Shown here in pieces: positions 1 through 12,111 of a DNA stretch of 64,000 nucleotides. A program made the position numbers and the translations under genes. The notes beneath the pieces were generated by a model. It worked only from the letters and a program-made list of their open reading frames with translations, did not search any database and was not told the DNA's origin. This DNA is from Pedobacter lusitanus. GTDB taxonomy: Bacteria; Bacteroidota; Bacteroidia; Sphingobacteriales; Sphingobacteriaceae. Location: positions 5,022,001 to 5,086,000 of the forward strand of contig NZ_CP157278.1 of assembly GCF_040026395.1 (NCBI RefSeq), given 5' to 3'. Each line of letters begins with the position of its first letter. The first letter of the stretch is position 1.

Positions 1-1
1 T

Positions 2-112
2 GTCGCTTTCAGGGGGCTTCACTTTCCGCTGTCTATTAACCCTTCAGAAGTACAGTCCCATGAATATTTTGATGAGCTGGTAGATATGCTTATCGAGGGT
101 ATTGGGAATTAA
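2..112 (+). CDS. C-terminal end of an upstream CDS (partial)
   Basis: Frame 2 is open from the window edge to a TAA at 110-112 and encodes 36 residues ending in ELVDMLIEGIGN. This acidic/hydrophobic helical tail resembles the end of TetR-type regulators, but it is too short for a family assignment. The stop lies just upstream of the next gene, on the same strand. Confidence 0.45.
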   Translation, partial: VAFRGLHFPLSINPSEVQSHEYFDELVDMLIEGIGN

Positions 113-137
113 TAATTTAAACCACCATATTTATATG

Positions 138-1409
138 ATGAATTACCTGGATATACTAGATCAGGTCAGAGCACATGTCTCGAGCTTGTTTCACACTAAT
201 AAAGACGAGAGATTAATCTATCATAATCTGCTGCATACCGAACAGGTGGTCAAAGCTGCAGTGAAAATTGCTAACCACTATCAGTTATCAGATCATGATT
301 TTTTTGTAGTGAGCATAGCCGCGTGGTTTCATGATATTGGTTATTTGACCAGTTGTGAAAAACATGAAGAACGGGGAGCTGGTCTTGTAAAAGAATTTCT
401 GGAATCTAAAGGAGCAGATCCTGAGTTAACCAGTCTGGTGATGAATTGTATTCTGGCTACCAGAATGCCGCAACGTCCGGTAGGGCTGCTTGAAGAAATT
501 GTATGTGATGCAGATCTCTTTCATCTGGGTAGTGAAGATTTCAGAGAAAGAAATAAACTGATCCGTAAAGAGGCCAGCGCTTTTGCTGGTAAAGATATTG
601 ATAAACACGAATGGCGTCTAAAAACAATTATGCTTTTTGAGTCGCATCATTATCATACGGATTACTGCCGTGATTTACTCAATGAAAAAAAAGAGATGAA
701 TCTGAATGAATTGAAAGAAAAAGTGATCAAAGATGATCATGAAAAGTCAAAAGAAGAGAAAGCAATCAATTCGGTTCTGGAAAATACTGACCATCATCCT
801 GAAATAGCAGCTACCGGATCTAAGGCTCAGCTCATGGAAAAAAAAGAAAATAAAAAGGAAGAGAAGAAAAAAAGTGACCGTCCTGATAAAGGGATAGAAA
901 CGATGTTCAGAATTTCGTCAGGTAACCATCAGCGTTTAAGTGATATGGCAGATAATAAAGCACATATCATGATTTCCACTAACTCTATTATTCTGTCGGT
1001 TACCCTTAGTGTTTTACTGCGAAAGCTGGAAGATAATCCTCATTTGATTATTCCTACTTTAATATTACTGGTTATTTGTGTGGTGACTATGGTGTTTTCT
1101 ATACTGGCCACCAGACCAACAGTTCCTCCGGGAACTTTTACACACGAAGATATTGAGCAAAAAAAGGTGAATCTGCTGTTCTTTGGTAATTTTTACCGGA
1201 TGGCCTTGCCTGATTATGTAGAAGGGATGCAGAATATGATGGAGGACAGAGATTTTCTATATGGAAGTCTGATCCGGGACTTATATTCACAGGGAGTTGT
1301 CTTAGGACGTAAATATCGTCTGTTAAGAGTTGCTTACAATGTATTTATGTTCGGTATTATTGCTTCTGTTCTCGCATTTGTTATTGCCAGTGCGGTAGTA
1401 GCTTTATAG
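138..1409 (+). CDS. HD-domain phosphohydrolase fused to a PycTM (Pycsar effector-type) membrane domain
   Basis: About 423 residues if started at ATG 138 (ATG 135 also possible); the longer frame from TTG 102 overlaps the previous gene and adds no conserved sequence. Residues 25-190 form an HD domain: H33, the H65-D66 pair in WFHDIGY, and D124/D126 are the expected metal ligands, so a nucleotide or phosphate-ester hydrolase is likely. A Lys/Glu-rich linker (about 190-255) leads to a C-terminal module with the pattern DNKAHIMISTN, two hydrophobic hairpin helices, an amphipathic middle and a last membrane helix. This matches the Pycsar effector transmembrane family (formerly DUF5706). No cyclase is adjacent. 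Only 7 bases separate it from ppk1, so the two are probably co-transcribed. Substrate is unknown. Confidence 0.8.
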   Translation: MNYLDILDQVRAHVSSLFHTNKDERLIYHNLLHTEQVVKAAVKIANHYQLSDHDFFVVSIAAWFHDIGYLTSCEKHEERGAGLVKEFLESKGADPELTSLVMNCILATRMPQRPVGLLEEIVCDADLFHLGSEDFRERNKLIRKEASAFAGKDIDKHEWRLKTIMLFESHHYHTDYCRDLLNEKKEMNLNELKEKVIKDDHEKSKEEKAINSVLENTDHHPEIAATGSKAQLMEKKENKKEEKKKSDRPDKGIETMFRISSGNHQRLSDMADNKAHIMISTNSIILSVTLSVLLRKLEDNPHLIIPTLILLVICVVTMVFSILATRPTVPPGTFTHEDIEQKKVNLLFFGNFYRMALPDYVEGMQNMMEDRDFLYGSLIRDLYSQGVVLGRKYRLLRVAYNVFMFGIIASVLAFVIASAVVAL

Positions 1410-1416
1410 AAATACC

Positions 1417-3480
1417 ATGAAAGAATATTCTTTTTTTAATCGCGATCTGAGCTGGTTGAGTTTTAATGAGCGTGTGCTCATGGAGGCCGAAAATGAACAG
1501 GTTCCATTACTGGAACGAATCAGATTTCTATCCATTTATTCTTCCAATCTCGATGAGTTTTACAGAGTGAGGATGCCGGTATTGATGGCTATTGATAATT
1601 TTGATGAGAACACCGGTTTAAATAACAATTATTATAAAGCACAGTTTTTAATCAATCAGCAGCAACAGCGATTTGGGCATCTGCTGGCTAACGAGCTTTT
1701 ACCTGCTTTAAAGGTCAGAAATATACACTGGTTATATAATGAGGCTATTCCTGATCAGATAACAGATGAATTGTCCCGGATTTTCTTTAATGAAGTCCTG
1801 GCGTATATCAGGCTGTATTCAGTAGCGAAGGATGAAGATGGTTTTTTTGCAGAAAACAATAAGCTTTATCAGGCAGTTATATTATCTGATACGGTCGGAA
1901 CAGAGCGCTTAGAGTTGATTACCATCCCATCTGATGATTTGCCAAGGTTATATGCAGTGAATAAAGGGGATCAGAAATATGTGGTTTTCCTGGATGATAT
2001 TATCAGAAGCAATCTCGCTTATCTTTTCCCTGATGAAAAAATAACTGGAGTGTTCAATATCAAGATTACCAGAAATGCAGAATTGAATATCAAAGATGAG
2101 ATTGATGATCTGGAAGAAGACATTACCATTGCTCTTGAAAAAGAATTAAAGAAACGGGACCTGGGCACAGCAACACGATTTTTATGCCAACCTGGAATAC
2201 CACTGAGGTATCTCTATAAGATCATTTATGCCCTTAACCTGACCAATTCATCTGTTGTAGAAGGTGGATATTATCATAATATGAAGGACCTGAGTAATTT
2301 TCCACTCCAGGAAGCCGGGTTAAATTATCCTAAATGGCCGTCACTCCCTAATCTGCTGCTGAAAAAAGAAGATACATTGTTCGAACAGATTCGTAAAAAG
2401 GACCTGATGATTCACGTTCCCTATCAGAATTATGATCCGATATTAAGATTCTTTAATGAAGCTGCAAATGATAGCTATGTAGAAGAAATTTATGTGACCC
2501 TTTACCGGGTGGCTGATAATTCCAGAATTGTTAATGCCTTAATGACGGCAGCAAAAAATGGTAAAAAGGTTTCGGTAATGGTAGAACTGAAAGCAAGATT
2601 TGACGAAGCCAATAATATAAAATGGGCTTCGAGAATGAAAGCTTCGGGAGTAAAAATCATTTATAGTAATAAAGAATTAAAGGTACATGCAAAGGTTGCT
2701 CTGGTTAAGAGAAAGATCAGAGATCAGAGTGAATATCTGGGACTGCTGGCTACAGGAAATCTGAATGAATCAACGGCAAGGTTTTATACAGATCATATTC
2801 TGCTCACTGCTAATCAGGTTATGCTGGCTGAGCTTGAACAGCTTTTTGGTTTCCTCAGAAAGAAAAAGAAGAAACCATTGCAGGAAGATGCAATCAACTT
2901 TGAACATTTACTGGTTGCACAATTCAACCTTCAGGCTAAATTCATTGCACTTATTGATCAGGAAATTGCCAATGCCAGACAAGGGTTACCGGCTGGTATG
3001 GTGATTAAAATGAATAATCTGGAAGAAAGAGTACTGATCTCTAAATTATATGAAGCTTCAAATGCCGGAGTTAAAATACAACTGATTATACGTAGTGTAT
3101 GCTGCCTGATTCCCGGAATAGAGGGGCAAAGTGAGAATATTATCGTGAAACGTATTGTGGACCGGTACCTGGAACACGGAAGAGTTTTTCTTTTCCATAA
3201 CAACGGAGCAGAAGATGTCTTTATGGGATCCGCAGACTGGATGAACAGAAATATTTACGGAAGGATAGAGGTTTGTTTTCCAATCTATGATCAGGAATTA
3301 AAAATAAGACTGATAGAAATCTTAAATTTACAGTTAAAGGATACTGTACAGGCAGTTGAATTGAATGAAGAATTACAAAATAATTACTGTAGTGGAGAAG
3401 TCCAGGTACGTTCCCAGCAAGCTATTTATGATCTGCTGAAAGAAACCACTGTACACACTATTGAAAATAACGCATCATAA
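1417..3480 (+). CDS. ppk1: Polyphosphate kinase 1
   Basis: 687 residues, the usual length for PPK1, which reversibly transfers the ATP gamma-phosphate onto polyphosphate. The N-terminal domain opens with NRDLSWLSFNERVL and SSNLDEFYRVRMP, both typical. Two phospholipase-D-like halves follow. The first carries the HAKVALV motif near residue 425, holding the autophosphorylated His; the second carries HGRVFLFHNNG and the SADWMNRN block near residues 588-610. It lies 7 bases after the HD/PycTM gene, and the following lipoprotein gene starts 40 bases after its stop, so a shared transcript is likely. Nothing looks degraded. Confidence 0.97.
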   Translation: MKEYSFFNRDLSWLSFNERVLMEAENEQVPLLERIRFLSIYSSNLDEFYRVRMPVLMAIDNFDENTGLNNNYYKAQFLINQQQQRFGHLLANELLPALKVRNIHWLYNEAIPDQITDELSRIFFNEVLAYIRLYSVAKDEDGFFAENNKLYQAVILSDTVGTERLELITIPSDDLPRLYAVNKGDQKYVVFLDDIIRSNLAYLFPDEKITGVFNIKITRNAELNIKDEIDDLEEDITIALEKELKKRDLGTATRFLCQPGIPLRYLYKIIYALNLTNSSVVEGGYYHNMKDLSNFPLQEAGLNYPKWPSLPNLLLKKEDTLFEQIRKKDLMIHVPYQNYDPILRFFNEAANDSYVEEIYVTLYRVADNSRIVNALMTAAKNGKKVSVMVELKARFDEANNIKWASRMKASGVKIIYSNKELKVHAKVALVKRKIRDQSEYLGLLATGNLNESTARFYTDHILLTANQVMLAELEQLFGFLRKKKKKPLQEDAINFEHLLVAQFNLQAKFIALIDQEIANARQGLPAGMVIKMNNLEERVLISKLYEASNAGVKIQLIIRSVCCLIPGIEGQSENIIVKRIVDRYLEHGRVFLFHNNGAEDVFMGSADWMNRNIYGRIEVCFPIYDQELKIRLIEILNLQLKDTVQAVELNEELQNNYCSGEVQVRSQQAIYDLLKETTVHTIENNAS

Positions 3481-3520
3481 ACCCGATAGGATTAGGGGGC
3501 ATCTGATAAAAAAAAAACGA

Positions 3521-4390
3521 ATGAAATTACTTCTAAAAAAGCTGAATTATATTTTTCCGGTACTGATCCTTATCGGATTCTATGCTTGTAAACCAGCAAA
3601 ACAGTCTTATACAAGCCCAAAAGGATATGACTTTAACCATCCGGAGAAATTTACTATGCCAGAAAGTCTGCATGAAATTTCCGGTATTGCATTCTATAAA
3701 GGAAAAAGTGATACTGTTTATTCTATACAGGATGAAGAAGGTCGTCTTTTCAGACAAGCCTGGGGTAATAAGAAACAGAAACATGCTGTTTTCGCTAAAA
3801 AAGGTGATTATGAAGATCTGGCAATTTTAAATGAAACTTTCATTATTCTCAGAAGTGATGGTACACTTTATACCTTTCCTTTTAGTGAAGCTACTAAAGA
3901 TAAAGTAGCCAATATTAAAGAATGGAATGACATACTGCCTGATGGAGAATATGAAAGTATTTATGCAGATCAGCAAACGAACCAGGTTTATCTGCTTTGT
4001 AAGAATTGTAAAGAAGATAAAAAGGAAAAAACAATGTCGGGTTCTATTTTTACTTATAATCCGGCAAAGAAAGAGCTGATTGCATCTGGTAATTTTTCTA
4101 TGGATCTCACTCCCCTGATTGATAAGGGACTCATACTGAAAACAGGATTAAAAGCTTCCGCTCTTACCAGAGATCCACATTCAGGAGACTGGTATATTTT
4201 GTCTTCTGTCAATAAATTATTGGTTGTAGCCAGCCCCGACTGGAAAGTTAAAGGTGTACACCGGTTAAATTCTTCTATATTTATACAGCCTGAAGGATTA
4301 GCTTTTGATAATCAGATGAATCTGTATATATCTAATGAAGGTGATGAACTTAGTTCTGGAAATATCCTGAAATTTGCACGTAAACCCTGA
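3521..4390 (+). CDS. SdiA-regulated/YjiK-type beta-propeller lipoprotein
   Basis: 289 residues from ATG 3521. An in-frame ATG at 3461 would overlap ppk1 and put a basic 20-residue tail before the signal peptide, so the later start is chosen. The signal ends in LIGFYAC with Cys23 as likely lipid site; the residue at -3 is Phe, atypical but tolerated in Bacteroidota lipoproteins. The mature part has propeller-like blades: SLHEISGIAF, GDYEDLAIL near residue 95, PEGLAFDNQMNLYISNEGDE near the C terminus. These EDLA/EGLA repeats are typical of the SdiA-regulated family, which is related to Ca-binding phytase-like propellers. An envelope role linked to phosphate or polyphosphate is inferred only from its neighbours. 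Confidence 0.72.
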   Translation: MKLLLKKLNYIFPVLILIGFYACKPAKQSYTSPKGYDFNHPEKFTMPESLHEISGIAFYKGKSDTVYSIQDEEGRLFRQAWGNKKQKHAVFAKKGDYEDLAILNETFIILRSDGTLYTFPFSEATKDKVANIKEWNDILPDGEYESIYADQQTNQVYLLCKNCKEDKKEKTMSGSIFTYNPAKKELIASGNFSMDLTPLIDKGLILKTGLKASALTRDPHSGDWYILSSVNKLLVVASPDWKVKGVHRLNSSIFIQPEGLAFDNQMNLYISNEGDELSSGNILKFARKP

Positions 4391-4404
4391 TGCTAAAATA
4401 ATTA

Positions 4405-4473
4405 TGAATCAATGACTTAGACCCAGTTTTAAATTTTTAAATTTAAGCGGGGTCTTCTAATTGAATCGATGAC
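4405..4473 (+). promoter_or_regulatory. Hairpin flanked by 12-base direct repeats
   Basis: In the 104-base gap before the GAF gene, AGACCC (4419-4424) can pair with GGGTCT (4450-4455) around an AT-rich core with inner TAAAT/ATTTA pairing. The hairpin is flanked by TGAATCAATGAC (4405-4416) and TGAATCGATGAC (4462-4473), which differ at one base. It could be a terminator/attenuator with two operator half-sites. The function is not known. Confidence 0.4.
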
Positions 4474-4494
4474 GCTTATAATTGAAAACACAAA

Positions 4495-6858
4495 ATGCAG
4501 GCAATAACGATTGACTTTAACAAGTACGTTTGCGGGAATGAGGAAAATGGAATGAAAGCTGATATTCGCCTTTCATTAAAACCATTTATTACCTTTCTTA
4601 CTGAAAAGATTAAAGTAGAAAAGACAGCCAAAATAAACTTCTATAACTATTTGCTGGAGCAGTTCTCTGCTTTTCCGGAATTGGCAGACCCTATTCCTGC
4701 AGCAAATGTCAATAAATACAATCATTTATTTGAATTGATCTATACGGCATTGTCGCCGATCATTAATGATGAACGGGAGCAATTATGGGCATTAAGTAAA
4801 CCTATATGTCCTTGCTTTTATTATGGTACAAATGCTTTTTATAAGGTCCTGCTTGATGATAAAAAAGAAGGTTTAAATACCGATCTGGCTTTGCCTTCTC
4901 AAAAAGAACTGCAGAATACTATGCTGACCACTCTGTACAATATGGTTCTGCAAAAGTTTTATAATTTCAGTCTGGGTACAGATCAGCATGTTATTAAATC
5001 TATAGTTGATCATAAAACACAGTTAATCAGGTATTACAGGTTAAATATCGATACCCGTTTTGTTGAGATTACAAGTAATACAACGCTGCCAGAGCTCACA
5101 CTGCAAAATGTAAAAGAGTATATGCAGGATGAAAGCAGCAATCTGGAAACCCTTAATAATTTACTACCCTCTTCCATGTTCCGTGTTGAAGGAATTGCTA
5201 TTGTCACTTTAGTAGATATCACTGCCGAATATGCACTTGAGTCTATTAAAAACGCAATTATTTCACATAACCAGTGTGAGGTAGGCTGGAGTACTTCTTC
5301 AATTTCTTTAGCACTCAAATCCCTGGTTGGAAGTGACCTGATAGATTTTGGATTACTGCCTTATTTAAAACTGAATAATAAAACATTACCTTATTTTCAT
5401 GAGGGTTTTCAAAGTATTATCATTCAGCAGGCGAAACTAAATGGAGTAGATGAAGCAGAATATGCTGAACTGGTAAAATCATTTATAGCAAACCCGCGCA
5501 GACTTATTTTTCCTGAAATTAAAGCTGAAGAATATACTGCCTACCCGATGCTTAAGTTGGTTGCAGATGCAGGTATCAGGTCATATGCTATTTTTCCATT
5601 ATACTACAATGCTAAACTGATCGGTTGCTTAGAGCTTTATACTAAAGACAGTACGGCTTTTAATGGGAATACTTTATCCAGAATTGAAAGCGCTTTCCCT
5701 TTGCTGACTCAGCTGTATCAGAATATCATTACTGATTTTAACAATGAGATCACTGCGATAGTCACTGATAAGTTTACTGCGTTGCAGTCTTCTGTTGAGT
5801 GGCGTTTCAATCAGGCTGCTTACAATTACATGGCTTCAGGCGGGTGGGAAAAAAATCTTCCGATTGAACCGATTTATTTCAAGGATGTACATCCTTTCTA
5901 CGGAGCAATTGATATCAGAAATTCAAGTATTGAGCGGAATCTGATGATCCGGAAAGATTTGTTTGCTCATTTTGAAATTTTGGAAATAACACTGGGAAAC
6001 CTGAAGTCCATAATACCAGAGGTCCTGGAAGATGATTTTCCAAGACAGCAGTCTGCATGGGATCATAAAGGGTTTGACGAAATATCTGATCGGGAGATTA
6101 TGAAAACTGACGATTATCTTCAGCATCAGCTTCCTCCTTACCTGAATATACTTAAAGATATTTATCCTGAGGCTGAAAAGATTATTGATGAATATTTTGA
6201 ACTGACACGTCCGGGAGGGAAGATCTTTGAAAACAGAGATAATTACGAGAATAGTATGCAGACCATTAACCGGGCGGTGAATAAACACCTGGATCAGTTT
6301 AATGCACAATTGCAGCAGGAATATCCTTGTTATTTTGAAAAATTCAGAACCGACGGTGTGGAGTTTGATATTTATCTTGGGCATTCTATTGCACCAGACA
6401 AAGATTTCAGAGATGATTTACTGGCTGATTTCCGGTTAAGGCAGTTGAAAGCAATTGCTGAGATAACCAGGATAACGGCAGACCTGAAGCCTTCACTAGC
6501 TATACCGATGGAAACTACACAGTTGATTTTTGTTTATGAAAAAATCATTGATATTAGTTTCAGGATTGATGAACAAAGATTTGATGTTGAAGGAAGTTAT
6601 AATATCCGGTATCAGATGGTGAAGAAAAGGATAGATAAGGCTCATGTCAAGGATAGTACAGAACGACTTACTCAGCCCGGTAAAATTGCAATTGTTTATT
6701 TCAATAGTTCAGAAGCTGATGAATATATAACATATATCCATAAATTACAGGAACAGCAATTATTAACCGATCAGGTTGAATATCTGGAAGTGGAAGAATT
6801 ACAAGGTGTTGAAGGACTTAAAGCATTGCGGGTAGAAGTCGCAATAAAAACTGATTAA
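4495..6858 (+). CDS. Large GAF-domain protein
   Basis: 787 residues, soluble, no signal peptide. The clearest domain is a GAF fold at about residues 235-425, including RSYAIFPLYYNAKLIGCLELYT, which reads as the last two GAF strands; GAF domains bind small ligands such as cyclic nucleotides. The N-terminal 230 residues and the C-terminal 350 residues are helix-rich and I recognise no named domain. There is no kinase, GGDEF or HTH output module. It is followed after only 3 bases by the outer-membrane protein gene, so the two are surely co-transcribed and plausibly linked in function. It may be the intracellular sensor of the ppk cluster (inference). Confidence 0.7.
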   Translation: MQAITIDFNKYVCGNEENGMKADIRLSLKPFITFLTEKIKVEKTAKINFYNYLLEQFSAFPELADPIPAANVNKYNHLFELIYTALSPIINDEREQLWALSKPICPCFYYGTNAFYKVLLDDKKEGLNTDLALPSQKELQNTMLTTLYNMVLQKFYNFSLGTDQHVIKSIVDHKTQLIRYYRLNIDTRFVEITSNTTLPELTLQNVKEYMQDESSNLETLNNLLPSSMFRVEGIAIVTLVDITAEYALESIKNAIISHNQCEVGWSTSSISLALKSLVGSDLIDFGLLPYLKLNNKTLPYFHEGFQSIIIQQAKLNGVDEAEYAELVKSFIANPRRLIFPEIKAEEYTAYPMLKLVADAGIRSYAIFPLYYNAKLIGCLELYTKDSTAFNGNTLSRIESAFPLLTQLYQNIITDFNNEITAIVTDKFTALQSSVEWRFNQAAYNYMASGGWEKNLPIEPIYFKDVHPFYGAIDIRNSSIERNLMIRKDLFAHFEILEITLGNLKSIIPEVLEDDFPRQQSAWDHKGFDEISDREIMKTDDYLQHQLPPYLNILKDIYPEAEKIIDEYFELTRPGGKIFENRDNYENSMQTINRAVNKHLDQFNAQLQQEYPCYFEKFRTDGVEFDIYLGHSIAPDKDFRDDLLADFRLRQLKAIAEITRITADLKPSLAIPMETTQLIFVYEKIIDISFRIDEQRFDVEGSYNIRYQMVKKRIDKAHVKDSTERLTQPGKIAIVYFNSSEADEYITYIHKLQEQQLLTDQVEYLEVEELQGVEGLKALRVEVAIKTD

Positions 6859-6861
6859 TAA

Positions 6862-9459
6862 ATGCACATAATTTCCAGAAAAAATAAAGTAAACCTTACA
6901 GTATCAGTAACTATTCTGTTCTTTAGTCTTCCGCTATTTACCCATGCACAGCAGAACAGGACTAAGGACTCTATTACAATAGCTATATCTCCTGCCTATG
7001 ATTCCGTTTCCAAAACACATCGTTTCTTTTTAGGTGAAAATTACAGGAAGTTATGGGCTACTCCTGTAAGAATGCGGATTGTTGATCTCCAGAAAGAACG
7101 TGGTGGTATGAAAATATTGCAACTGGGAGGAGGAATGCAGACCAGATCTTTACGCCTGGAAGATGCCTCAGGAAGGGAGTGGGCGCTCAGAACGATTCAG
7201 AAATATCCTGAAAGAGGTTTGCCAGCAAATTTGAGGGCAACAATTGCTAAAGATATCGTACAGGATCAGATTTCAACAGGTCATCCTTTTTCTGCATTAA
7301 TTGTTCCACCATTGGCTGATGCCCTTGAAATTCCTCATGCTAATCCAGAAATTATTTATATCGGTGATGATCCTGCCCTTGGTAAATACCGGAAGGTTTT
7401 TGCCAATGCAGCTTATTTGCTGGAAGAACGTATGCCGGCAGGGTATGAGAAAAGTGATAATACATTGAAAGCTCAGCGAAAAATTGAGGAAGATAATGAT
7501 ACACATATTGAACAAAAATTAGTTTTAAGAGCGAGATTACTTGATTTTGTTGTTGGTGACTGGGATAGACATGAAGATAACTGGCGATGGTTAAAAATAG
7601 ACGATAAGGATAAAGGAGAGAAGACATATATCCCTGTTCCAAGGGATAGGGACAAGGTTTTTTATAAAACCTCAGGTATATTTCCCTGGATACTCTCACA
7701 TCAGTGGTTAAAAGCCAATTTACAGCCTTTTGATGCAGAAATCAGAGCTGTTGATCAGTGGAATTTTAATCAGCGGTATTTTGACAGATACTTTCTGAGC
7801 GGGTTGAGTGAAAAAGACTGGCAGGAGGAAATCAAATATGTGCAGGGAAAATTAACGCCGGCTTTACTTAGAAAATCAATGCAGCTGATGCCAGCTAATA
7901 TTTTTGCTGAAGGAGGAGAAGAGACATTGAATATAATGATTGCCAGAAAAGATAACCTGGAGAAAAGTGCCATGGCCTATTATCGTTTTCTGGCTCATAC
8001 GGTTGAAATTCCTGCTTCCGATAAAAGAGAGTATTTTGAAATCAGACATAAGAAGAACGGGAATATAGAACTGACTGTCAGTAATATTAAAAAGAGTGGT
8101 GAAACGGGCCGGAAATTATATCACCGTACCTTTGATCATAGTTTGACCCATGAAATCAGATTATATGGAATGGGAGGGGATGATATATTTGAAGTGACCG
8201 GAGAAACAAAATCGCCGATTACAGTTCGGATGATTGGCGGAGATGGTAAAGATCGTTTTGAGATTAATAAAGATCTGGGTCATAAATCAAATACTTACAT
8301 CTATGACCGCTCAGATCAGGAAAATGAAATTCCTTCTTCTTCTGTAGCAAAACTTCGGTTATCTGCTGATACAGCTGTTAATCAGTATAATAAAAAAAGC
8401 TACGTATTTGATCAGTTTGGACCATTATTTCATGTTAATTATAATATTGATCAGGGGATACAAGCAGGTGTCGGACTGATTCTGGAGAAACAGGGTTTTA
8501 GAAAAACACCTTATGCATCGCATCAGGAGTTTTGGGTAGATTATTCGACGGGTAGAAAATCTTTTATCCTGAACTATGCCGGAGACTTTAAAAAAGCCAT
8601 TGGGAATACAGATTTTAAGGTCAATGCAAATCTTTTGGGGCCAAATAACCTGAGTAACTTTTTTGGTTTAGGTAATGAAACTGAATTTATCAAAGAGGAA
8701 CCCAAAGACATGTCCTATTACAGAAACCGTTACGATTATCTGACTGCAGATTTTCAACTCTATAAAAAAACCGGCAGATGGACAATAGGTGGAGGGTTAA
8801 CCACAGAGTATTACACCAGCAGCCGTAAAGGAAATGAACATCGGTTTTTGAATGACTTCAATCAGACTAATCCTGAAGAGTCAGTTTTTAATGATCGTGT
8901 TTACGTGGGGCTGATTACCGAAGTAAAATATGATTCCAGAGATAATATTTCCATCCCTAAAAATGGAATGTATTGGAATACCAGGATTACAGCTAGTCAG
9001 CAGCTCAACTCAGATCATGAACGCTATGGGAAAATACAATCAGAATTTCGTTACTATTTGAATCCGGGACATTCTGGCTTCGTGATTGCAAACCGTTTAG
9101 GTGGAGGTACAACTTTAGGAAATCCCGGGTTTTTCCAGCAAATGCAATTAGGTGGAGTACATAATCTTCGCGGTTTCCATACAAATCGGTTTACGGGTAA
9201 ATCCATGCTATATTATAATCTGGATCTTCGCCTTAAGTTATTTGATTTTACCTCTTACATTGTACCCGGATCATTAGGTCTTCTTGGCTTTAATGATGTT
9301 GGCCGTGTATGGATGCCTGGCCAGTCTTCAAATCAGTGGCATCATGGATACGGAGGTGGAATATACATTGTTCCGGCTGATCTGATCCTGATACAGGCAG
9401 CTGTTGGTTTTTCGAAAGAAAGCACAATGCCTTATATTTCTGTAGGATTTAATTTTTAA
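6862..9459 (+). CDS. Outer-membrane BamA/surface-antigen-type barrel with a periplasmic kinase-like domain
   Basis: 865 residues with a cleavable signal peptide (ending THAQ, residue 30). Residues 80-400 contain protein-kinase-like elements in the right order: Gly-rich GGGMQTRS (89-96), WALRTIQK with a candidate beta-3 Lys at 114, LEER at 187-190, GDWDRHEDNW (232-241) resembling a catalytic DxxxxN loop, and PRDRD (260-264) resembling a metal-binding Asp motif. Residues from about 520 to the C-terminal Phe form a 16-strand-like surface-antigen barrel, with RLGGGTTLGNPGF and the GGVHNLRGF motif typical of Omp85 C-terminal parts. Some Bacteroidota relatives, as I recall, carry a metallophosphatase in front; none is present here. 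The kinase assignment is my inference from motif order, not a recognised annotation. Confidence 0.75.
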   Translation: MHIISRKNKVNLTVSVTILFFSLPLFTHAQQNRTKDSITIAISPAYDSVSKTHRFFLGENYRKLWATPVRMRIVDLQKERGGMKILQLGGGMQTRSLRLEDASGREWALRTIQKYPERGLPANLRATIAKDIVQDQISTGHPFSALIVPPLADALEIPHANPEIIYIGDDPALGKYRKVFANAAYLLEERMPAGYEKSDNTLKAQRKIEEDNDTHIEQKLVLRARLLDFVVGDWDRHEDNWRWLKIDDKDKGEKTYIPVPRDRDKVFYKTSGIFPWILSHQWLKANLQPFDAEIRAVDQWNFNQRYFDRYFLSGLSEKDWQEEIKYVQGKLTPALLRKSMQLMPANIFAEGGEETLNIMIARKDNLEKSAMAYYRFLAHTVEIPASDKREYFEIRHKKNGNIELTVSNIKKSGETGRKLYHRTFDHSLTHEIRLYGMGGDDIFEVTGETKSPITVRMIGGDGKDRFEINKDLGHKSNTYIYDRSDQENEIPSSSVAKLRLSADTAVNQYNKKSYVFDQFGPLFHVNYNIDQGIQAGVGLILEKQGFRKTPYASHQEFWVDYSTGRKSFILNYAGDFKKAIGNTDFKVNANLLGPNNLSNFFGLGNETEFIKEEPKDMSYYRNRYDYLTADFQLYKKTGRWTIGGGLTTEYYTSSRKGNEHRFLNDFNQTNPEESVFNDRVYVGLITEVKYDSRDNISIPKNGMYWNTRITASQQLNSDHERYGKIQSEFRYYLNPGHSGFVIANRLGGGTTLGNPGFFQQMQLGGVHNLRGFHTNRFTGKSMLYYNLDLRLKLFDFTSYIVPGSLGLLGFNDVGRVWMPGQSSNQWHHGYGGGIYIVPADLILIQAAVGFSKESTMPYISVGFNF

Positions 9460-9499
9460 TTCGACCGTTCATAATGGCTGTTTATAAATTATAATTCAG

Positions 9500-9526
9500 G
9501 CTGCCGGAACCAATTAAACCGGCAGC
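9500..9526. terminator. Hairpin between convergent genes
   Basis: GCTGCCGG (9500-9507) pairs perfectly with CCGGCAGC (9519-9526) across an 11-base loop, between the ends of two convergent genes. There is no T tract on the plus side, so termination there may be weak or Rho-assisted. Confidence 0.55.
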
Positions 9527-9574
9527 ACTGAACCAACTATGCAAACAAAAAAACAATCTTTAGAATAGCTGAGT

Positions 9575-10366
9575 TCAATTTGTTTTGATTTCCCGGTAAA
9601 TTACCTTCGCTGAGCTCTTTCCTTCCCTGACTGTTGTAGTAATCATATCCGGATAGCCGTCAGTATTGTATTCATAACTGAAATTTTGTTCATCTTCGGG
9701 AGCTGAAGGATTGTTACAAAACCTGATATTATTGACCCCGGAAAGGAAAAGACTGTTATCTTTCTCGATAGTCAGTAGCCACACATATCTGACATGCTTA
9801 AATAAGCCATTTTTCAGATCATAACTGTAGTTTAATGCAGGTCCTGCTATTCCTGCTTTTTCCCCGCTCAGATTGCCGGCCTCATTAAACCATCTTTCCT
9901 GCTCACCAGCCTGATGATTATTGATGTCAAAATTATGAATACCTGTAATCTGATTATCACTATTGTATTTCAATTCATAGTAACCTGTAGAGATATATTC
10001 ATCTTTTTTCACAACAGCTGTTTTACCCTTTTTTACTCGTCCTTTTTCATCCAGAGAATAACTGGTATAAGAAACGAGAACATCGTTCTTATATCGCTGT
10101 AAATCGAAAGGCTTTCCATCTTTGGTGTAAGTCAGTACAATACTTTTTCCATCTCCATACTCAATTTTAGAAACGGCTAATCCTTCGGTATAGCTAATTA
10201 CCATTTTTGATTTTCCGGTTCCCAGCTGAACCGGAACCAATATTTTGGTACCCACATCAATAACAGGCGGAATAACCTCTCCGGTAGTTTCTGCCGGGCT
10301 GTCATTTTTTTTACAACCCATAAAAAGAACAATAGTGACCAGAAACAAATTCTTATAAATTTCCAT
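9575..10366 (-). CDS. Lipoprotein with YD-repeat-like strands
   Basis: 263 residues. The signal peptide ends in LFMGC (Cys18) followed by Lys-Lys. The mature part contains short repeated patterns such as YTKDGKPFDLQRY, YSLDEKGRVKKG and YEYNTDGYPDMI, which resemble the YD-like repeats of many Bacteroidota surface lipoproteins of the DUF4595 kind. It is probably an anchored envelope protein; no enzymatic motif is seen. It is a single gene, convergent to the OM barrel and divergent from glgA. Confidence 0.6.
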   Translation of the reverse strand: MEIYKNLFLVTIVLFMGCKKNDSPAETTGEVIPPVIDVGTKILVPVQLGTGKSKMVISYTEGLAVSKIEYGDGKSIVLTYTKDGKPFDLQRYKNDVLVSYTSYSLDEKGRVKKGKTAVVKKDEYISTGYYELKYNSDNQITGIHNFDINNHQAGEQERWFNEAGNLSGEKAGIAGPALNYSYDLKNGLFKHVRYVWLLTIEKDNSLFLSGVNNIRFCNNPSAPEDEQNFSYEYNTDGYPDMITTTVREGKSSAKVIYREIKTN

Positions 10367-10704
10367 AACAATAATAAATTTTAGATTTAATTAAAACCTA
10401 AAACTACTTCCATTATTGGAAATAATGTTTAAATAATTAAATAAATATCTAAACAATAACAAAATAAGCCCAGAACGGTAATATTTGCTGATTTTAAATC
10501 AATTCAGGTACTGTCATGCTTCATTGCCGGCATCTCTGTAATCATACATTGGCTGAACAGAGGAGGCGCTGAGAAATCAGATAAAAGAAGACCAGAAAAA
10601 AATAATACAATTTAATGAAAAACAATGTGTGTTTATTTGGGTTATAACTCATATTTTAATAGCAAATTACAAATACCACCTTTATCTCAGCACGTCAATA
10701 ATTT
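10367..10704. other. 338-base AT-rich intergenic region before glgA
   Basis: It separates divergent transcription units, so it must hold the promoter of glgA (plus) and of the lipoprotein (minus). No open frame, RNA gene or long inverted repeat was found, and no exact TAnnTTTG element. The nearest is AATATTTG, about 205 bases before glgA, with one mismatch. Confidence 0.4.
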
Positions 10705-12111
10705 ATGGAAATAATTCATCTCAGCGCAGAATGTTATCCGATAGCTAAAGTTGGAGGATTAGGGGATGTTGTAGGCGCATTACCAAAATATCAGCGTAAA
10801 CTGGGGCACTTCTCCAAAGTAGTTATGCCCGCATATAATAATTCATTTATGCTTCAAAACGAATTTGAAGTAGTTTATGATGCATGGGGTAATCTCGGAA
10901 CCCGTCATTTTCCGGTACGGATATTCAGAGAAAAGACAAATAAACTGGGGTTTGATCTTTATCTGGTATACATAGCGGGTTTAACGGATCGTGATCGGGT
11001 ATATGGTTATGAAGATGATACTGAGCGTTTCCTGGCTTATCAGATTGCTACCTTAGACTGGATCAGTCAGTGGGAACACCGTCCTGATGTGATCCATTGT
11101 CATGATCATCATACTGGTCTTGTCCCGTTTATGACCGGTAATTGTGAAAAATATAAGAGTCTTAGAAATATTCCTACCGTGCTTACCATTCATAATGCTC
11201 AGTATCAGGGACAGTTTGGGTGGGATAAACTACATTATCTGCCTGCCTTTGATCTGTGGAGATCTGGTTTGCTGGAATGGAAAAATGATATTAATCCGTT
11301 GGCTTCAGCTATTAAATGTGCCTGGAGGGTAACAACGGTTTCTCCGAGTTATCTGGAGGAAATCAGTTACAACGCCAATGGACTGGAAAGTCTGCTGGCC
11401 AGCGAAAGAGGGAAGTCTGCGGGGATCTTAAATGGAATCGATAATGAGGTCTGGGATCCGCAAAAAGACCCGATGCTCGAGAAGACTTATAGTATAAGAA
11501 CCGTAGAAAATGGTAAAAAGGCAAACAAAGCAGCGCTGTGTGATGTTTTTAATTTAGACCCGGCAAAACCGTTATTCACATTTATCGGCAGGCTGGTTGG
11601 AGAGAAAGGAGCAGATTTATTACCTGAGATTTTTCATAATTCATTAGCTCACAGTCGCGGGAATATTAATATTCTCGTGCTTGGCTCCGGAGATCCTGAA
11701 GTAGAAGGAAAGCTAATCGAGTTGAAGAACTGGTTTTCTGGAAACTATAACGCTTATATTGGCTATAATGAAAAATTGTCCCATCAGATTTATGCAGGGG
11801 CTGATTTTCTATTAATGCCTTCAAGAGTAGAACCTTGTGGATTAAATCAAATGTACGCGTTGCGTTACGGGACTATCCCGGTTGTAAGAAGGATTGGTGG
11901 ATTGAAAGATACAGTGGTGGATATAGGGGATGGTGGATTTGGTATTTGTCATGATCAGACCAGTGTGGGAGATGTTGGACATGCTATCGGAAGGGCTTAT
12001 GACCTTTATCAGAATAAAAAGCATGTTAAAGAAATTCTAAAATATACAATGCAGCTGGACCATTCCTGGGATAAGGCCGCCCAACAATATATAGATCTGT
12101 ACCAAATGTAA
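10705..12111 (+). CDS. glgA: Glycogen synthase (ADP-glucose type)
   Basis: 468 residues, the normal length. The GT5 N terminus carries the KVGGLGDVVGALP motif, whose KxGGL part binds ADP-glucose. FIGRLVGEKGADLLPEIF begins the C-terminal Rossmann half, and the MPSRVEPCGLNQMYALRYG block holds the retaining-enzyme E-x7-E region. It extends alpha-1,4-glucan chains from ADP-glucose in the cytoplasm. The next gene, glgC, starts 9 bases after the stop and makes the donor, so the pair is an operon for glycogen build-up. The branching enzyme glgB is not in the window. Confidence 0.96.
   Translation: MEIIHLSAECYPIAKVGGLGDVVGALPKYQRKLGHFSKVVMPAYNNSFMLQNEFEVVYDAWGNLGTRHFPVRIFREKTNKLGFDLYLVYIAGLTDRDRVYGYEDDTERFLAYQIATLDWISQWEHRPDVIHCHDHHTGLVPFMTGNCEKYKSLRNIPTVLTIHNAQYQGQFGWDKLHYLPAFDLWRSGLLEWKNDINPLASAIKCAWRVTTVSPSYLEEISYNANGLESLLASERGKSAGILNGIDNEVWDPQKDPMLEKTYSIRTVENGKKANKAALCDVFNLDPAKPLFTFIGRLVGEKGADLLPEIFHNSLAHSRGNINILVLGSGDPEVEGKLIELKNWFSGNYNAYIGYNEKLSHQIYAGADFLLMPSRVEPCGLNQMYALRYGTIPVVRRIGGLKDTVVDIGDGGFGICHDQTSVGDVGHAIGRAYDLYQNKKHVKEILKYTMQLDHSWDKAAQQYIDLYQM

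Follow-up and report, generated by a model that had tools for sequence, protein, structure and literature searches.

What does a protein do that joins a kinase-like domain to an outer-membrane barrel, and is it an enzyme? The question is raised by a gene at positions 6862 to 9459 (+) of a 64,000-nucleotide stretch of the Pedobacter lusitanus genome (hereafter the window), in which an earlier note, made from the letters alone, had recognised kinase motifs ahead of an Omp85-type barrel. We conclude that the gene probably encodes an exported enzyme of an undescribed protein-kinase-like family, whose own Omp85 barrel would hold it at the outer membrane, the kinase-fold domain lying on the periplasmic side, and which would perform metal-dependent phosphate transfer. 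The features computed here are a kinase fold, an active-site set that is kept or lost as a unit, a barrel and, in many relatives, a phosphatase-like domain fused or adjacent. To our knowledge, few kinase-fold enzymes occur outside the bacterial cytosol and none is fixed to an outer-membrane barrel. A literature search (mostly open-access, without preprints) found no description of the kinase-fold domain or of its fusion to a barrel; this is a new family and a new architecture on a known fold. If the domain is an enzyme, the envelope would be marked with phosphate by an undescribed route, and the sharp question becomes that of the phosphate donor where ATP is absent.

Fold and putative active site of the domain

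The open reading frame (ORF) is intact, with exact bounds. Its parts are listed below, with residue counts from 139 homologues obtained by thinning the 356 best-scoring sequences at 70% identity.

6862..9459, +, whole gene, kinase-fold domain and Omp85 barrel, 865 amino acids (ORF list; homologues are of like length)
6862..6948, +, putative signal peptide, residues 1-29 (read by eye from the sequence)
7069..7995, +, kinase-fold domain, residues 70-378 (AlphaFold2 (AF2) model of residues 34-500; the best VIA-align rows are model residues 37-345)
7126..7143, +, Gly-rich loop GGGMQT, residues 89-94 (G89 and G90 in 139/139, Q93 in 137/139)
7189..7203, +, R110 in strand b3, and K114 four positions further (both 139/139)
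7264..7266, +, D135, in a helix at the aC position (helix 128-139 in the model; 138/139)
7423..7425, +, E188, at the end of strand b5, the hinge position (139/139)
7555..7581, +, catalytic-loop-like GDWDRHEDN, residues 232-240 (D233, D235 and H237 in 139/139; residue 240 Gln in 122, Asn in 17)
7639..7653, +, metal motif PRDRD, residues 260-264, right after strand b8 (D262 and D264 in 139/139)
7945..7947, +, R362, in a helix that hhalign aligns with the C-terminal part of CotH (137/139)
7996..8361, +, all-beta region, residues 379-500 (structure models)
8362..9456, +, Omp85-type outer-membrane barrel, residues 501-865 (Pfam Omp85, NCBIfam Omp85_fam)

The AF2 model, which is confident, shows a two-lobed kinase fold with the motifs in kinase order on the predicted elements, strand b3 (106-111 in the model) holding R110 and K114 following directly after it. 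Two structural comparisons, by Foldseek and by VIA-align, match the model to kinases. An unrelated fold, which the earlier note had set as refuting, was thus not what structure prediction and fold search gave. The model, both comparisons and the conserved Asp and Lys positions in close to middling relatives support a kinase-like fold joined to an Omp85 barrel. The Gly-rich loop, Lys, Glu, GDWDRHEDN and PRDRD lie where that note had placed them and in kinase order, while its D234 was misnumbered, the aspartates being D233 and D235 and residue 234 a Trp.

Compilation of the thinned homologues (<70% identity) revealed that (i) G89, G90, R110, K114, E188, D228, D233, D235, H237, D262 and D264 are invariant in 139/139, and (ii) D135 and R236 are kept in 138. 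Because 46 of the 139 rows had entered through a pattern scan for sequences containing DWDRH, which is a bias, the count was repeated on the remaining 93 rows; the eleven residues are invariant in 93/93, and position 240 is Gln in 77 and Asn in 16. The Asp and Lys positions are conserved in this range of the family. Variation at the positions named in the earlier note, its second ground for refutation, does occur at N240, which is mostly Gln, and in distant relatives that look like pseudo-enzymes. Taken together, the motif order on predicted elements, the match to the kinase fold and the invariance argue for more than chance. Such conservation suggests that the site is functional in the branch of the window protein, with R110 and K114 as candidate phosphate-binding basic residues and D235 as candidate catalytic Asp.

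Pfam and NCBIfam recognise in the 865-residue protein its C-terminal Omp85 barrel only. The Pfam match (PF01103, E-value 1.8e-9, residues 611-834) reaches 38 bits against a cut-off of 24; that to Omp85_fam has an E-value of 4e-33, yet its 115.5 bits lie below the cut-off of 200. No POTRA profile matched ahead of the barrel, where the models give the kinase fold and then the all-beta region, possibly a degenerate RTX-like beta-roll. A PDB search with the single sequence returned the barrel (E-value 1.2e-4) and chance matches, and the best PHROGs match was an entry of unknown function (E-value 0.018).

Several results weigh against the enzyme proposed here: (i) the strand-b3 residue appears to be Arg in place of the kinase Lys, and 122 of the 139 homologues have Gln at the position of the catalytic-loop Asn; (ii) the Foldseek TM-scores are low, at best 0.34 by query and 0.52 by target; (iii) across 31 diverse homologues the domain matched none of the described Pfam kinase families (E<=10), the CotH, HipA_C, Fam20C and PI3/PI4 kinase profiles included; (iv) the hhalign alignment of the loop, the metal motif and the R362-bearing C-terminal helix to CotH was weak (P 0.0034, probability 9.6%; with a larger set, P 0.0066, probability 5.8%), and no similarity to HipA was found (P 0.25 and 0.31); (v) a PDB profile search touched CtkA at the catalytic loop with an E-value of 0.58, behind an unrelated chain at 0.094; (vi) the full residue set is absent from the 10 weakest relatives examined and from 7 of 30 others, most of them with barrel-sized ORFs; (vii) the window gene itself lacks a phosphatase domain; and (viii) ATP is not expected in the periplasm, and no member of this predicted phosphotransferase family has a known activity.

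The substitutions under (i) set the domain apart from ordinary kinases and would suit a kinase-fold enzyme with other chemistry in place of phosphorylation, such as the AMP transfer of SelO or the ligation of SidJ, both performed on a kinase fold. HipA proteins, by comparison, are kinases. The DxHxx(N/Q) and PxDxD forms of the domain resemble motifs of some HipA and CotH relatives, and the CotH family, too, is described as kinases (PMC7821199), so that we regard other chemistry as distinctly unlikely. The window protein is most likely an outer-membrane-anchored phosphotransferase facing the periplasm.

Phosphatase partners and degenerate relatives

A protein search returned 1813 homologues at E<=0.001 among 7994 candidates scored, and a whole-genome search over 395 sampled genomes of the phylum placed the domain in 143 of them (in 140 of the 371 of good quality), though not always with the phosphatase or the full active site. 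The architecture in these relatives is the best functional clue. We compared the 80 best-scoring of at least 593 loci, taken with up to about 10 kb on either side, several being cut by contig ends; since they are the best-scoring, they lean to close relatives. Among their 86 domain ORFs, 44 have the order phosphatase-domain-barrel and 38 the order domain-barrel, while the other 4 show no match to a barrel (L064 continues past its contig end, L050 ends early, and two are of 538 amino acids). The phosphatase label takes 3-4 changes on a tree of the 86 rows. The extra N-terminal domain is calcineurin-like (PF00149), and purple-acid-phosphatase-type motifs are present in 55-57 of 63 such domains (6-8 miss a given motif), some of which may be one gene counted twice. 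A Riemerella metallophosphoesterase that reportedly has phosphatase activity might be a relative.

The genome of P. lusitanus holds a paralogue of 1206 amino acids about 0.5 Mb from the window gene (C1:4517570-4521190; L172:8571-12191), which is 41% identical in the kinase-fold domain and has the N-terminal phosphatase domain. Its neighbours are a TonB-dependent receptor plug, an esterase, a TonB_C protein, an acetyltransferase and a DUF5777 barrel, not the ppk1 cluster described below. At three further loci (L175:9038-12182, L176:9513-12851 and L177:7204-12133) domain genes with ORFs of about 540-590 amino acids stand divergently, head to head, with three copies in L177.

The partners also occur apart. 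At L033 and L060 a separate phosphatase gene shares the locus with a domain-barrel gene, and in the L174 lineage (L174:9051-13097) three genes in a row encode the kinase-like protein, the phosphatase and an Omp85 barrel on its own. The first two of these start with a lipobox-like sequence (that of the phosphatase read by eye), a pattern that also matches 5 of 61 long and 5 of 50 middle-length proteins. From these starts, the signal-peptide-like start of the window protein and the Omp85 barrel, we infer a periplasmic location of the domain. The presence of that barrel, and the BamA/TamA family names that several homologues carry from their sources, would also suit an insertase or secretion pore of the Omp85 type whose N-terminal domain stands in for POTRA domains and handles client proteins; however, the domain has a kinase fold, and in the split L174 version domain and barrel are two different proteins, which makes such a role very unlikely.

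The distant members were sampled by hand from the weaker rows of the whole-genome search, as 30 middling-to-weak matches and 10 chosen as the weakest, 3 of these 10 spanning part of the domain only. The full set of eleven residues occurs in 23 of the 30 but in none of the 10, and D235, D262 and D264 occur together in 24 and in none, respectively; at L205, among the 30, two residues are missing only because the contig is cut. T429 is kept in 40/40. Broken sets are mostly broken at several positions together: L179, L181, L212 and L214 retain GDGDR with R..Y replacing the metal aspartates, and L182, L183, L185, L204, L208, L215 and L218 have Asn at the D235 position. The joint loss argues for one catalytic site, while the persistence of degenerate, barrel-sized proteins argues that the protein also has a job free of catalysis. 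Degenerate sites were seen at L179-L185, L204, L208, L212, L214, L215 and L218, in ORFs of 860-1260 amino acids, and several of these branches share patterns, either GDGDR with R..Y or N-W-N-R/D-W-N-R.

These relatives bear on whether the domain is a pseudo-enzyme, binding a ligand or partner and regulating the barrel without catalysis. Such a role would agree with the fusion of the domain to a barrel and with the retention of the rest of the protein, T429 included, where the site has decayed. The catalytic and metal aspartates, on the other hand, are invariant in the window protein and the 139 thinned homologues, and elsewhere the motifs are lost together, as expected of one working site; we consider the pseudo-enzyme reading unlikely. 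The family likely contains both enzymes and pseudo-enzymes, and its degenerate branches are natural controls.

Gene neighbourhood and possible phosphate donors

The window gene is the last of five that share a strand and lie no more than about 100 bases apart; together they likely form one operon. The genes ahead of it are:

102..1409, +, HD-type/PycTM membrane protein, opening the same-strand run (PF18967, E-value 6e-37; HD-CE weak, under its cut-off)
1417..3480, +, ppk1, polyphosphate kinase 1 (TIGR03705, E-value 1.1e-192)
3461..4390, +, SdiA-regulated-like protein, presumably of a beta-propeller family (PF06977, E-value 4.7e-6)
4495..6858, +, protein of 787 amino acids with a weak GAF match, ending 3 bases ahead of the barrel gene (GAF_2, E-value 0.0068, under its cut-off)

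Across the 80 loci the neighbours were HD/PycTM in 46 (9 of these matches cover fewer than 200 residues, two of them at a locus edge), SdiA-regulated-like in 30, GAF-like in 23, ppk1 in 21 (one of them a fragment of 131 residues at the edge of its locus), and glgA and glgC in 1 each. In 20 further loci (L152-L171), which were picked and not drawn, the corresponding numbers were 14, 6, 7 and 3 for HD/PycTM, SdiA-regulated-like, GAF-like and ppk1. No other neighbour of the kinase-fold barrel gene is thus as constant as the HD/PycTM gene, whose protein gave no significant match in the PDB. Two Mucilaginibacter loci (L036 and L038) hold the full neighbour set together with a gene of each form, phosphatase-domain-barrel and domain-barrel, and there (L036:3859-12490, L038:3570-12490) the GAF-like gene lies between the two forms in a cluster that includes ppk1.

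Neither a tRNA nor an Rfam match was found in the 6.4 kb that precede the window, where one long open frame lies on the minus strand. A promoter and terminator scan of positions 1-10800 gave 30 promoter-like sites against 37.5 expected and 11 terminator-like sites against 6.3, and was not used.

Polyphosphate derived from ppk1 had been suggested as the phosphate donor of the domain. The comparison gave this no direct support, ppk1 being near in 21 of the 80 and 3 of the 20 loci and rarer than HD/PycTM, and PPK1 is a cytoplasmic enzyme. Argued from gene proximity alone, with a ppk1-near label that takes 11 changes on the domain tree, the assignment was set aside.

In the phosphotransferase that we favour, a metal-bound phosphate donor would sit between the Gly loop, R110/K114 and D262/D264, and D235 would act as catalytic base. 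Phosphate would then pass to an envelope acceptor, which may be a protein, a lipid or a glycan, and the linked phosphatase, where present, could reverse the phosphate mark or recycle phosphate. Candidate donors would be exported or environmental ATP, undecaprenyl pyrophosphate, which serves as periplasmic phosphate donor in the LpxT system, and polyphosphate. More tentatively, members across the phylum might make up an outer-membrane phosphorylation system, in which one Omp85 barrel carries a kinase-fold enzyme and, in many cases, also a partner like the purple acid phosphatases, and pseudo-enzyme branches keep the barrel. Its compartment would be one without ATP, and the donor would therefore be another one (undecaprenyl pyrophosphate, polyphosphate or an exported nucleotide). 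We put this wider picture forward as a possibility that is rather doubtful at present.

Comparison with known families

By sequence, filing the domain under CotH or HipA was dropped, given the lack of a Pfam match in the 31 members and the weak or absent hhalign similarity; the resemblance was kept, and the domain is like both and, as far as sequence goes, a member of neither. For this comparison we took 20 CotH and 19 HipA ORFs found in relatives; a twentieth HipA locus yielded no usable ORF. In the P-x-D-x-D form of its metal motif the domain resembles some relatives of the CotH spore-coat kinases (PF08757, PDB 5jd9), a [WP]D.D pattern occurring in just 10 of the 20; it differs from CotH in the DxH of its catalytic loop, in its Omp85 barrel and, in many relatives, in the phosphatase. 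With some relatives of HipA and CtkA (PF07804, PDB 4pu4 and 3akk) it has the D-x-H-x-x-N spacing of the catalytic loop in common, although a strict N.D.H..N-type loop was found in 3 of 19 HipA relatives and G.Q.K in 5; the present domain is exported and has PxDxD, whereas 16 of the 19 have PxYD.

The likeness to Fam20C and the PI3/PI4 kinases is structural only. PI4-kinase type II (PDB 9hhm, 4yc4), a eukaryotic lipid kinase, is 11-13% identical in the aligned part, without a sequence-family match. The N-terminal domain of the long homologues has its motif set in common with the purple acid phosphatases (PF00149), but is joined here to a kinase-fold domain and a barrel. In overall plan the protein recalls PlpD and FplA, Omp85 proteins with a patatin-like enzyme domain at the N-terminus: in both cases an enzyme or enzyme-like domain precedes the barrel, whereas the present protein, in which no POTRA was seen, has a kinase fold in place of the lipase.
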